The notes below the pieces were generated by a model. It was not told where the DNA came from and did not search any database. It saw only the letters and a program-made list of their open reading frames with translations. From Gammaproteobacteria bacterium (GTDB taxonomy: Bacteria; Pseudomonadota; Gammaproteobacteria; Thiohalomonadales; Thiohalomonadaceae), in contig JANJXC010000038.1 in the NCBI GenBank assembly GCA_024709225.1, positions 1 through 64,000 on the forward strand: a stretch of 64,000 nt of DNA, given 5' to 3'. The translations under genes and the position numbers were made by a program. Shown here in pieces: positions 46,099 to 50,040 of this stretch (within the stretch, counting starts at the first letter, position 1; each line of letters opens with the position of its first letter).

Positions 46099-46140
46099 AC
46101 AACGCCGCTGCGGTCCACGACCGCAGCGACGTTGTGTTTT
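46099..46140. terminator. Bidirectional terminator between the DUF4202 gene and fccB
   Basis: A 17 nt stem (46099-46115 with 46119-46135, 16 of 17 paired) around a 3 nt loop, with GTTTT after it on the plus strand. It lies between two convergent genes and probably ends both transcripts. Confidence 0.75.
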
Positions 46141-47434
46141 ACTCCATCATGTCGTTGATGACGTTCTTGAACCAGCTGTGGGCGTAGCTCACCTCGCGCC
46201 TGCGGATCTCCGGGCTGGCGTTGGCCGGTGATACGCCGCCGGAGTTGGGCATTTCCTCGATGGAGTTGTTGGCGGCATCCAGGGTATAGACCGCCGCCAC
46301 CGAGATACCGAAGTCCTCGCCCACCACGCTGTAGCAGGTGTTGACGAAGGTCGGATCGCCCGGCTCGCGGCCGAGGAAGCGGGCGACGATGGCCGCGGCG
46401 GCCACCTTGGCCTGGGAGTTGGCGGCATAGGCCGACTTGGGCATCTTCGCCGCACTGGAGGCGTCGCCCAGCACGTAGATGTCCTTGTGCCGCTTCGATT
46501 CGAAGGTGCGCTTGTCCACCGGGCACCAGTCGCCATCGACCAGGTCGGCGGCGAAGGCGATGGCACCGGCCTTCTGCGGCGGGATGATGTTCACCACATC
46601 GCCCTGGAATTCCTCGATCTCCGCCTGCAAGGTCAGCGTCGACGGGTCGACGGATTCCACCTTGCCGCCGGCGGCGGCCCCCACCCATTCGATCATGCTG
46701 TTGCCAGTGCCGTAGCCATACAGCTTGGTCCAGCCCTCGACATACAGCCCCTGCTTGGAGAAGGCATCCTTGGCATCGAGGATGATGATCTTGGCGCGCG
46801 GGTTGTGGTGCTTGCAGTACATGGCGATCTGCGAGGCACGCTCGTACGGCCCCGGCGGGCACTTGAAGGGATTGGGCGGCGCCACGATGATGACGCGGCC
46901 GCCCTGGCGCATGGCCTGCAACTGGCGACGCAGGATCTTGGTCTGCGGCCCGGCGTTCCAGGCATGGGTGATGGTCTCGCTCGCCGCCTCGTCATAGCCG
47001 TCGATGGCGCCCCACTTGAAGCCGATGCCGGGTGACACCACGCAGGCGTCGTAGTCGAAATTCCTGCCGCCGGCCGTCGTCACGCTCTTCTTCACCGGGT
47101 CGATGCCTACCGCCATGTCCGTGACCACCTCTACGCCATGGCGGCGCAGGCCGTCATAGTTGAAGGTGATCGACTCCAGCGTGCGCTCGCCGCTCAGCAC
47201 CTCGTTGCTCATGAAGCAGCTGGTGTAGGTGGTCTTGCTCTCGATCAGCGTCACCGCCAGGCTCGGGTCGAGCTTGCGCAGGTACTTGGCGACGGTGCAG
47301 CCGCCCACGCCGCCGCCCACCACCACCACGCGGCGCGCGGCGCCGAGGGCGATGTGCGGAAAGCCGAGGCCGGCACCCAGCGCGGCCACGCCGCCGGCGC
47401 TGCGAATGAAATCTCTACGCGTAATCTTCGTCAT
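46139..47434 (-). CDS. fccB: Flavocytochrome c sulfide dehydrogenase, flavoprotein subunit
   Basis: 431 residues. A Tat signal (TRRDFIRSAGG) sends the folded FAD protein to the periplasm. The FAD-binding GGGVGGCTVAKYL begins near residue 38. The redox-active Cys pair of FccB is present, in NPFKCPPGPYERASQ and NTCYSVV. The C-terminal FCSD domain follows. It oxidises sulfide and passes electrons to its cytochrome c partner, encoded upstream in the same operon. Sulfide:quinone oxidoreductases are related but lack this C-terminal domain and the Tat signal. Confidence 0.92.
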   Translation of the reverse strand: MTKITRRDFIRSAGGVAALGAGLGFPHIALGAARRVVVVGGGVGGCTVAKYLRKLDPSLAVTLIESKTTYTSCFMSNEVLSGERTLESITFNYDGLRRHGVEVVTDMAVGIDPVKKSVTTAGGRNFDYDACVVSPGIGFKWGAIDGYDEAASETITHAWNAGPQTKILRRQLQAMRQGGRVIIVAPPNPFKCPPGPYERASQIAMYCKHHNPRAKIIILDAKDAFSKQGLYVEGWTKLYGYGTGNSMIEWVGAAAGGKVESVDPSTLTLQAEIEEFQGDVVNIIPPQKAGAIAFAADLVDGDWCPVDKRTFESKRHKDIYVLGDASSAAKMPKSAYAANSQAKVAAAAIVARFLGREPGDPTFVNTCYSVVGEDFGISVAAVYTLDAANNSIEEMPNSGGVSPANASPEIRRREVSYAHSWFKNVINDMME

Positions 47435-47455
47435 GATTCGTGGTCCTCGCAGCGA

Positions 47456-48034
47456 TCAGTGCTGGCTGGCGTAGTAGTGGATGAGCGCAGGAATCGCCTG
47501 CTTGCCGTCGTCGGCGATCGCCGCATCCACCTTGCGCTTCATCTTGCGCGGCCAGTCGCGCTTACCGGACATGAAGTCATCCATGGTGTGCTGCAGATAG
47601 GGCATCCACTGCCCGGCCAGCGTGCCGGCGTCGCCGGGGCGACCGCCGTCCTCGTGACACTTCTCGCAGTGCTTGTCGTGCAGGATCTTGCCGCGCGCGG
47701 CGAGCGCCGCATCGTATTTCTGCGGCAGCAGGTGCAGGCGCTGTCTGGCGAAGAACCAGGCCATATCCTCCAGCTGCTGCGTGGTATAGCCCTTGGCGAT
47801 GCGGTTCATGATGGAGGAGTTGCGCTTGTCGGCCTGATAGTCCTTCATCGCATCGACGAACACCTCCGGGTCCATGCCGGCAATGGACGGCATCGACGGT
47901 CCCACGCTGGAACCGTCGGTACCATGACAGCCGGCACAGGTGAAGGCCAGCGCCTCGCCGCTGGGTGCGGCGGTGGTCATCGCCGGGGCCAGCGCCAGCA
48001 CGGCCAGCAGCAGATTGCGTACAGTCTTGGTCAT
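47456..48034 (-). CDS. Dihaem cytochrome c, probable FccA-type subunit
   Basis: 192 residues with a Sec signal peptide (cleavage after TAA, about residue 23) and two CxxCH haem sites, CAGCH at 33-37 and CEKCH at 123-127, one per cytochrome c domain. Met ligand candidates (PSMPSIAG, QWMPYLQ) follow each. The order and 21 nt spacing to fccB fit FccA, which receives electrons from the flavin. A general c4-type dihaem cytochrome is the alternative. Confidence 0.82.
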   Translation of the reverse strand: MTKTVRNLLLAVLALAPAMTTAAPSGEALAFTCAGCHGTDGSSVGPSMPSIAGMDPEVFVDAMKDYQADKRNSSIMNRIAKGYTTQQLEDMAWFFARQRLHLLPQKYDAALAARGKILHDKHCEKCHEDGGRPGDAGTLAGQWMPYLQHTMDDFMSGKRDWPRKMKRKVDAAIADDGKQAIPALIHYYASQH

Positions 48035-48051
48035 GATGTCGTCTCTTCAGG

Positions 48052-50040
48052 CTAGTCCGGCATGGTCATCAGGCCGATCAGCACCAGCGTCAGCAACGCC
48101 AGGCCGGCCATGATCAGTACGCTGGTGATGAACGAAGCCGCCAGGTCGGCGCGACGCGACGGACGCTTGACCAGATGCTTGTCCAGTTCACCGGCCGCCA
48201 CCAGGCGCTCGTATTCGAGGCGATGGTCGTGCTTGAACTCCTCGATGGGGATCGCACCGGTGAAGATGGTGGTGCTCATCGGAAAGCGCTCCGGCCGGAA
48301 GTGCACGTTGAAGAAGTGCACCGAGTTGAGGAAGATGGCCGCCAGCAGCGCCTCTTCCGCATGGATCAGCGTGGCGATGTTGAACATCCAGCCCGGCAGG
48401 ATGGTGGCGGTCGCCTCCGGCGCAAACAGGATGATGCCGGAGGAGCCGATCACCGCGGTACCCCAGAACGGCGCCCAGTAGTCGAACTTCTGCCAGTAGG
48501 TCCAGTGGCAGAACTCGGGACGCGGGCCGCGGCCGAGGAACCACTTGAACATGCCGCGCAGGTCATCCCAATCCTTCCAGTTGGGCAGCATGGAGGTGCC
48601 GCCGAACCACTCGAACGTCTGGCGCTTGCGCCAGATGTTGGTCAGCGCGATGGCCAGATGCGCCACGAAGATGCTCAGCCACAGCACCGCGGCGGTGCGA
48701 TGCACGATGCCTTCCACCTGCGGTCCGCCGAGGAAGTTGACCACCGCCTTGGCCCACGCGGTGTGGGAGAACAGCAGGGTGGTGCCGGTCAGGATCAGGG
48801 TCATGGTGGCGATGGCGAACAGGCCGTGGATCCAGCGCCATACCGCCGGGAAGCGACGGAAGTAGACGATATCGGGCCGCTCGCGATCTTCGATGAAGCC
48901 CTTGCCCTGGATGCGATCCATCACCTCGCGGTACAGCCACAACAGCACGTGCACCCAGAAGAAGGCGATGACGCCGAAGATCAGTGCCTGCATGAATACC
49001 TTGGCGATCCACAGCGCCGGGTAGTTCTCCGCATCGTCCGCATCACCGTGCGGCCAGAAGCTGAGAAAGTTCTCGTTGGCGTCGGTATGGCAGTTGCGGC
49101 AGTTCTCCAGCCGGTTGTTGGCATGGATCTCCGAGGTTGGGTCGTCCTTGCCCTTGATCTCGTGGCCGCCGTGGCAGTCGTGGCACTTGGCGGTGTTGGT
49201 GTAGCCGAGGCGGTGCACCTGGCCATGATAGGAGGCGAAGTAGGTGCGCTGGGCATCCTCATGGCAGTCGCCGCAGTTCTTGGTGATCGCCTTCTTGGCG
49301 GCATCGCCCTCGGGCGAGGTGATGGCATGGGTGGTGTGGCAGTCGGAGCACACCGCCGCCTTGCTGTCCTTCTTCTCCAGCACCGCCTTGCCGTGATCGG
49401 AGGTGCGGTATTCGTTCAGCTGCTTTTCGTGGCAGCTACCACACAGCTCGGGATTCTTCAGGCGGTTTTCCTCGCGCTGCTGGGTGCCCAGCTTGCCGAC
49501 GGTGTGGGCGTCGTGACAGTCGTAGCAGGTGGCGTTGGTGCGGGACTCGTCCAGCTTGCTCGGCTGGGCGTGGACCGATCCCATGAAGCTGTCGATCTGT
49601 TCGACGACGACCTTCAGCCGCTCGTGCTCGCCGCTCGGATCGTCCTTGTGCTTTTCCCAGGTACTGCGATGGCACTCGACGCAACCGACGATCACCTCCG
49701 GCGCCTCGCGGTGCGGCACGCGGCTGATGGTGGTGTGGCAGCTGTTGCAGCGCTGCTCGCCGTGCACGCTCGCCTCGATCTGGTCGCGGTGCACGAAGAT
49801 ATTGACCTTGCTGCCGTCGTCGCGGACGTCGGTCTTTTCCTTTTCGTCGCCATGGCAGGTCAGGCAGCGCTCGTTGGGGATGATGCGCTTGCCCGTCGCA
49901 GGATCGAAGTGCTGGAGGATCGTCTCGCCTTCCGGCGCCGCGTTTTCTGCATGGGCCGCAGGCGTGATGCACAGGCTGAAGACGGCTGCCCAGAGGCAGG
50001 CCAACGCCGTGGAGGCGATGCGTCGGGGCATCGTATTCAT
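48052..50040 (-). CDS. Multihaem cytochrome c fused to a cytochrome b membrane domain
   Basis: 662 residues. After a signal peptide come nine CxxCH sites in the first 350 residues (CLTCH, CNSCH, CVECH, CYDCH, CGSCH, CSDCH, CGDCH, CHDCH, CRNCH). Then six membrane helices follow with a formate-dehydrogenase-gamma-like cytochrome b fold: conserved His in RWIHGLFAI, GIVHRTAAV, LIHAEEAL and SVHFFNVHF. It is the first gene of an operon with the dihaem cytochrome (17 nt gap) and fccB, so it probably passes electrons between quinone and the sulfide dehydrogenase. Strong Shine-Dalgarno AAAGGAAA precedes MNTMPRR; the longer ORF upstream is not supported. Confidence 0.85.
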   Translation of the reverse strand: MNTMPRRIASTALACLWAAVFSLCITPAAHAENAAPEGETILQHFDPATGKRIIPNERCLTCHGDEKEKTDVRDDGSKVNIFVHRDQIEASVHGEQRCNSCHTTISRVPHREAPEVIVGCVECHRSTWEKHKDDPSGEHERLKVVVEQIDSFMGSVHAQPSKLDESRTNATCYDCHDAHTVGKLGTQQREENRLKNPELCGSCHEKQLNEYRTSDHGKAVLEKKDSKAAVCSDCHTTHAITSPEGDAAKKAITKNCGDCHEDAQRTYFASYHGQVHRLGYTNTAKCHDCHGGHEIKGKDDPTSEIHANNRLENCRNCHTDANENFLSFWPHGDADDAENYPALWIAKVFMQALIFGVIAFFWVHVLLWLYREVMDRIQGKGFIEDRERPDIVYFRRFPAVWRWIHGLFAIATMTLILTGTTLLFSHTAWAKAVVNFLGGPQVEGIVHRTAAVLWLSIFVAHLAIALTNIWRKRQTFEWFGGTSMLPNWKDWDDLRGMFKWFLGRGPRPEFCHWTYWQKFDYWAPFWGTAVIGSSGIILFAPEATATILPGWMFNIATLIHAEEALLAAIFLNSVHFFNVHFRPERFPMSTTIFTGAIPIEEFKHDHRLEYERLVAAGELDKHLVKRPSRRADLAASFITSVLIMAGLALLTLVLIGLMTMPD

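Follow-up and report, generated by a model that had tools for sequence, protein, structure and literature searches.

Related systems and the sulfide dehydrogenase operon

Flavocytochrome c sulfide dehydrogenase (FccAB), whose structure was solved from Allochromatium vinosum (PDB code 1FCD) and Thermochromatium tepidum (PDB code 3VRD), is a soluble protein of two subunits. The membrane cytochrome CbcL of Geobacter sulfurreducens (GSU0274) combines an N-terminal periplasmic domain, which binds nine c haems with bis-His ligation, with a C-terminal six-helix dihaem b domain of the HydC/FdnI type (PMC9129911, PMC6295460); in metal reduction, it hands electrons from quinol on to PpcA. Members of the CbcL/MtoC/MtrH family are considered to be quinol oxidases or quinone reductases; the family is regarded as bidirectional, and the direction cannot be diagnosed from any sequence feature (PMC6295460). 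The identity between CbcL and MtoC/MtrH is about 35%, according to the literature. In the 64-kb stretch of DNA analysed here (contig JANJXC010000038.1, positions 1–64,000; hereafter the window), from a Thiohalomonadaceae genome, a gene for a CbcL-type fusion of a nine-haem c domain and an FdnI-like b domain precedes fccA and fccB. The fusion is probably an inner-membrane quinone oxidoreductase that serves FccAB as a specialised membrane partner and connects it with the quinone pool.

The three genes are arranged on the minus strand (46139–50040) in the order fusion, fccA, and fccB, with intergenic gaps of 17 nucleotides between the fusion gene and fccA and 21 nucleotides between fccA and fccB. 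The original prediction, made from the letters of the window, had described an fcc operon led by a fusion of nine haem sites and a six-helix cytochrome b, and this description was confirmed by the three minus-strand genes, the nine CxxCH motifs, and the six helices of the AlphaFold2 (AF2) model. Both subunits of the solved FccAB are present in the operon, whereas the solved proteins are soluble two-subunit forms to which the operon adds a predicted membrane quinone cytochrome.

Architecture and family of the fusion protein

The fusion contained exactly nine CxxCH motifs in a single frame, at residues 59, 98, 120, 172, 200, 231, 256, 286, and 314 of the 662-residue product. Elsewhere in the window, CxxCH motifs were found only in FccA (two) and in one spurious frame. 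Because no multihaem frame besides FccA occurred elsewhere, the nine motifs of the fusion frame are not explained by chance. When 51 homologues were aligned over their full length, the CxxCH columns were kept throughout, with those of haem 2 retained in 50 of the 51. Nine histidines of the periplasmic part outside these motifs, His93, His110, His157, His179, His216, His238, His272, His293, and His331, were invariant. Since these nine would suffice as ligands, the alignment is consistent with bis-His coordination of all nine c haems. Some homologues (Rhodoferax, Gallionella) apparently carried eight haems, a count that may reflect an effect of motif spacing, as the checked alignment columns were retained.

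In the b domain, residues His405, His447, His560, His575, and His580 were invariant among the same homologues, and His364 and His461 were nearly so (His461 in 48 of 51). The AF2 model, with a mean predicted local distance difference test (pLDDT) score of 81.7, showed six long C-terminal helices (residues 341–377, 399–423, 440–471, 515–539, 551–580, and 629–658). When the model was compared with the PDB by Foldseek, the best and only significant match was FdnI, the gamma subunit and dihaem cytochrome b of Escherichia coli formate dehydrogenase-N (1kqf_C), with an E value of 4.7e-4, a probability of 1.00, and a TMt of 0.75. The b domain thus had the fold of FdnI, but in the fusion it sits behind nine c haems, whereas FdnI stands on its own as a small molybdoenzyme subunit. 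In addition, the formate dehydrogenase gamma model TIGR01583 was matched by 46 of the 51 homologues. Searches of the PDB with phmmer gave weak haem-motif matches only for the fusion and nothing informative for the b domain alone.

The fusion shared an identical domain order, haem count, and helix count with CbcL, and was homologous over its whole length to proteins of the MtoC/MtrH type, which is known from Gallionella, Dechloromonas, and Rhodoferax. Two Gallionella homologues, L066 and L069 (loci, genomes, and contigs carry our L, G, and C labels), were 43–44% identical to the fusion over nearly the full length. They head clusters that contain a monohaem cytochrome, an MtoA-like decahaem cytochrome, and an MtrB/MtoB-type barrel, which matches the published gene content of the mtoC cluster (PMC6295460); they were recognised as MtoC-type by this content and not by name. 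On the basis of the CbcL-like architecture and the MtoC-type relatives, the fusion is assigned to the CbcL/MtoC/MtrH family. A new protein architecture, considered as a candidate, was ruled out by this CbcL type. MtoC and MtrH adjoin outer-membrane conduits, and their proposed role is to oxidise Fe(II) or to reduce Fe(III); the fcc-linked proteins stand apart in a clade of their own, described below. The locus is no Mto/Mtr cluster, with mtrA/mtoA and mtrB/mtoB absent alongside and FccA being the only other multihaem gene product in the window.

Sequence features of FccA and FccB

The best PDB matches of FccA and FccB were the two flavocytochrome c subunits of Chromatiaceae. The match of FccA to the A. 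vinosum subunit 1fcd_C spanned the whole mature chain, and FccB matched 3vrd_B and 1fcd_A with E values of about 1e-145. Residues Cys73, Cys192, and Cys367 of FccB were present and aligned with those of the A. vinosum enzyme; we take them to be the cysteines that link flavin adenine dinucleotide (FAD) and those that are redox active, following their roles in 1FCD. FccA and FccB are therefore read as a canonical flavocytochrome c sulfide dehydrogenase, for which sulfide oxidation is predicted. FccA also matched the NCBIfam model "periplasmic diheme shuttle PdsA" below threshold, with 100 bits against a cut-off of 330, and no paper on the name PdsA was found in the literature search. A plasmid search by tblastn and a search of viral contigs with FccA gave nothing useful.

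Distribution of the fusion and its pairing with FccB

At least 571 relatives of the fusion were found in the collection scan, of which the best 80 were kept with flanks, and a neighbourhood census covered 108 homologues. In this census, 19 copies immediately preceded fccAB in the same orientation, among them that of L025 from the cultured Thiorhodococcus minor DSM 11518, and five were near fccAB on the opposite strand. The other 84 comprised 16 near a decahaem, 12 near a tetrahaem, and eight near an octahaem cytochrome, 19 near none of these, and 29 with too little flank. All 19 collinear copies fell into one clade of 20 rows, with a Shimodaira–Hasegawa-like approximate likelihood ratio test (SH-aLRT) value of 99, and spanned Chromatiaceae, Sedimenticolaceae, Thiohalomonadales, and Betaproteobacteria. 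The single exception in the clade, L185, had no fcc downstream and starts 168 bp into its contig. The sister of this clade was L027, with a divergent fccAB. In the clade after that, divergent fccAB (in three rows), a dihaem cytochrome, and an ankyrin protein occurred in changing combinations.

Of 369 evenly drawn gammaproteobacterial genomes, 113 had FccB and 25 had the fusion, and the two were adjacent in six, collinear in G000 (the source genome), G001, G117, and G366 and divergent in G236 and G336. Only a minority of fcc loci thus have the fusion as partner, and only a minority of the fusion family is paired with fcc, but the bond is nearly fixed in the clade. The original prediction had named occurrence of the gene mostly without fcc as evidence against it; such occurrence was found for the family as a whole and not for the subclade of the fusion.

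The fusion-linked FccBs were placed in two main positions of the FccB tree. The 16 gammaproteobacterial rows formed one clade (support 99/97), and the betaproteobacterial rows L026 and L049 formed the other together with the divergent L027 (100/100). A single clade of fusion-linked FccBs was rejected by the approximately unbiased (AU) test with p = 0.017, in which the group was set by gene context and the test was chosen after the tree had been seen. When the window was compared with the betaproteobacterial collinear loci, the fusions were 68–70% identical, in contrast to 48–49% for FccB. Either FccB would have been swapped within the operon, or the pairing would have arisen twice. Both replacement and double origin argue for a functional bond between the fusion and FccAB.

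Some relatives showed other arrangements. The FccB of G264:C6 (L184/L200) was nearest to the fusion-linked clade and occurred without the fusion, with neighbours that appeared by eye to be a molybdoenzyme and an iron-sulfur subunit. In the sister clade of the fusion (L028, L029, L031/L265, L032/L188, L033, L041, and L191), a dihaem cytochrome, an ankyrin protein, and sometimes NapC were shared, and fccAB was present or absent; the modules look as if they had been exchanged between operons. Split relatives in G002:C8 (L192) and G019:C45 (L011, L016) had a seven-haem c gene beside a separate cytochrome b gene, with identities to the fusion halves of about 27% and 32%. The fusion lay directly behind an octahaem cytochrome in L060, L063, L078, L094, L143, L150, and L157, and the octahaems of L060 and L063 gave a weak match, below cut-off, to a hydrazine dehydrogenase model.

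Quinone cytochromes of other fcc operons

Among 63 further gammaproteobacterial fcc loci, most of them chosen for a high FccB rank, which biases the set to relatives, 61 had enough flank; a gene for a NapC/NirT tetrahaem quinone cytochrome was close by in 27 of them, 16 of these with an ankyrin protein, and fccAB stood alone in 34. The earlier statement that a typical fcc locus consists of fccA and fccB alone was therefore too strong. The source genome had two fccAB copies beyond the operon of the window. The second locus, G000:C56 (L190:1837–5430), had the order NapC/NirT tetrahaem cytochrome, ankyrin repeat protein, fccA, and fccB, and the same order was found in G195:C85. Such operons were also seen in L197, L202, L204, L235, L238, L239, L243, and others, and are common in Gammaproteobacteria. 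The third copy, G000:C18 (L189:4751–10999), had neighbours that by eye were heterodisulfide-reductase-like (HdrB/C/A type).

The A. vinosum genes Alvin_1095-1094-1093-1092 encode a 4-haem cytochrome, an uncharacterized protein, FccA, and FccB, and are strongly induced on pyrite (PMC11267869). From this published order, the locus appears to have the NapC/NirT–ankyrin–fccAB arrangement. The operon of the window resembles these loci (Alvin_1095–1092, L190) in having a gene for a quinone-linked multihaem cytochrome upstream of fccA and fccB, whereas in those loci the fusion is replaced by a tetrahaem NapC/NirT protein together with one of ankyrin repeats. Mutual exclusion of NapC and the fusion was considered and rejected, as both co-occurred in L028, L029, L265, and L044, although never in the collinear clade. 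By gene content, many fcc operons are predicted to encode a multihaem cytochrome linked to quinone, which belongs to the NapC type or, in a single clade, to the CbcL type.

These comparisons bear on the possibility of co-expression only, in which the fusion would be a general periplasmic electron hub and fccAB would merely share its promoter. The homologues adjoin varied cytochrome genes (tetrahaem, octahaem, and decahaem), so that several donors are possible. However, a loosely tied neighbour would not be expected to keep its fcc link within a single clade and to show it with two different FccB lineages, and a NapC-type quinone cytochrome holds the same position in other fcc operons. This explanation was ranked last among those considered, at a low probability.

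Proposed electron path

The role of the fusion as quinone partner of FccAB is favoured because the tight collinear operon was kept in 19 loci and the association was confined to one clade, and because an unrelated quinone cytochrome of the NapC/NirT type fills the same slot in many fcc operons. Sulfide (HS-) would reduce the FAD on FccB, and the electrons would pass to the two haems of FccA. From FccA, they would be transferred through the periplasmic domain of the fusion, along its nine bis-His c haems, to two b haems in the FdnI-like domain, where quinone would be reduced. FccAB would then feed the quinone pool, like sulfide:quinone reductase (SQR), instead of soluble cytochrome c only. This path presumes contact of the fusion with FccA, formation of a complex, the direction of flow, and the type and chemistry of the quinone. 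The reaction would be electrogenic if, as in formate dehydrogenase-N, the quinone receives its electrons on the cytoplasmic side, a suggestion drawn from the FdnI-like fold alone. The source genome contained a MenA homologue as well as cytochrome bc1. A search for subunit II of cytochrome bd gave no match in this draft of 110 contigs and 94% completeness, which makes the absence a weak one. Because bc1 was present and a cytochrome bd match was not, the quinol could pass to bc1. The link of FccAB to the quinone pool, as originally proposed, is the most plausible reading of the locus, and the gene linkage behind it recurs across Gamma- and Betaproteobacteria. The uphill operation in reverse, which the original prediction had also suggested, gained no support from the analysis and was not contradicted by it.

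Several points weigh against this role. The haem potentials of CbcL are low, clearly below those of the FccA haems; if the haems of the fusion were of similarly low potential, entry from FccA would be partly uphill. The two further fccAB copies in the 94%-complete draft of 110 contigs could serve the same need. Most of the 108 homologues were seen without fcc, some of them lying beside Mtr/Mto conduits or octahaem or tetrahaem cytochromes, so that the family as a whole is, as judged from its gene neighbourhoods, not intrinsically a sulfide enzyme. Furthermore, the sequence is silent on direction in this bidirectional family (PMC6295460).

The last point allows for reverse flow, in which the fusion would be a quinol oxidase that feeds FccA or other periplasmic cytochromes, and FccAB or a soluble carrier would reduce sulfur or polysulfide; alternatively, the electrons would leave for a different acceptor, as they do through CbcL in Geobacter. 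In G. sulfurreducens, export of electrons to low-potential acceptors needs CbcL (PMC9129911), no direction-specific sequence feature is known from the family (PMC6295460), and the MenA homologue of the source genome would fit. On the other hand, FccB is a canonical sulfide dehydrogenase that kept all catalytic cysteines, and sulfide is a strong donor. The fcc-linked clade was also found in lineages that oxidize sulfur, Chromatiaceae and Thiodiazotropha among them. Reverse flow is therefore considered unlikely.

The fusion could also take up electrons that cross the outer membrane from solid or extracellular sulfide (metal sulfides, S0), in the way suggested for MtoC, and FccAB would then be the point of entry in the periplasm. 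Family members occur within Mtr/Mto outer-membrane conduit operons (TIGR03508, TIGR03509, TIGR03507), and Alvin_1093 and Alvin_1092 (fccAB) and Alvin_1095 (4-haem) are among the most pyrite-induced genes of A. vinosum (PMC11267869). However, an MtrA/MtrB homologue was seen beside none of the fcc-linked copies, the window held no multihaem gene apart from those for the fusion and FccA, and the results on pyrite come from an operon whose cytochrome has four haems and not from the fusion operon. Such a function is quite unlikely.

Under the preferred role as quinone partner of FccAB, a further step can be offered tentatively. FccAB and the fusion may be stably joined in the membrane as a modular sulfide:quinone oxidoreductase, which would be electrogenic and would reach the quinone in a manner unrelated to that of SQR. 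Many fcc operons have one of two unrelated quinone cytochromes (CbcL type or NapC type), so that flavocytochrome c of these bacteria may usually pass its electrons to quinone and not to soluble cytochrome c.

Gene start and flanking signals

The fusion starts with the ATG at 50040, which is preceded by a GGAA-rich ribosome site. In its relatives L004 and L005, both of one other genus, an in-frame stop was located right before the conserved MPRR start, which supports this start and the 662-residue product; the 697-residue open reading frame from 50145 in the mechanical list was over-extended. A promoter scan gave no candidate on the strand of the operon. Stem-loop sites beyond fccB were called on the plus strand with a score near the shuffled background (Table 1).

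Table 1. Features of the fusion–fccAB operon, in positions of the window.
Feature	Coordinates	Strand	Remarks
Nine-haem c / FdnI-like b fusion gene, CbcL/MtoC/MtrH family	48052..50040	-	662 residues, signal peptide; 9 CxxCH, six transmembrane helices
Periplasmic nine-haem domain (approximate)	49056..49950	-	residues ~31–328; Cytochrome_C7, Cytochrom_c3_2, and Paired_CXXCH matches
Six-helix cytochrome b domain (approximate)	48055..49020	-	residues ~341–658; conserved His, AF2 helices, FdnI match
fccA, dihaem cytochrome c subunit of flavocytochrome c sulfide dehydrogenase	47456..48034	-	two CxxCH; 1fcd_C 7.8e-48
fccB, flavoprotein subunit, Tat-type (RR) signal	46139..47434	-	FCSD_central 4.7e-47, FCSD-flav_bind 1.2e-25
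Weak stem-loop/terminator-like sites between convergent fccB and DUF4202	46106..46136	.	consensus scan alone

Implications

The operon joins a known enzyme with a known membrane cytochrome family, and their recurrent combination is apparently unreported. Sulfide and flavocytochrome are not mentioned in the family paper (PMC6295460), and no description of the pairing was found in a search of titles and abstracts of open-access literature. The term "undescribed module" of the original prediction thus applies to the pairing with fcc and not to the fusion, which is of the CbcL/MtoC/MtrH type (PMC6295460, PMC9129911). The cellular role of flavocytochrome c is unsettled, and the dedicated quinone cytochrome of this operon offers a concrete and testable electron path. 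A cytochrome family of metal respiration would thereby be extended into sulfide oxidation, and the energy yield from sulfide would have to be counted differently, both for purple sulfur bacteria and for symbionts like Thiodiazotropha.

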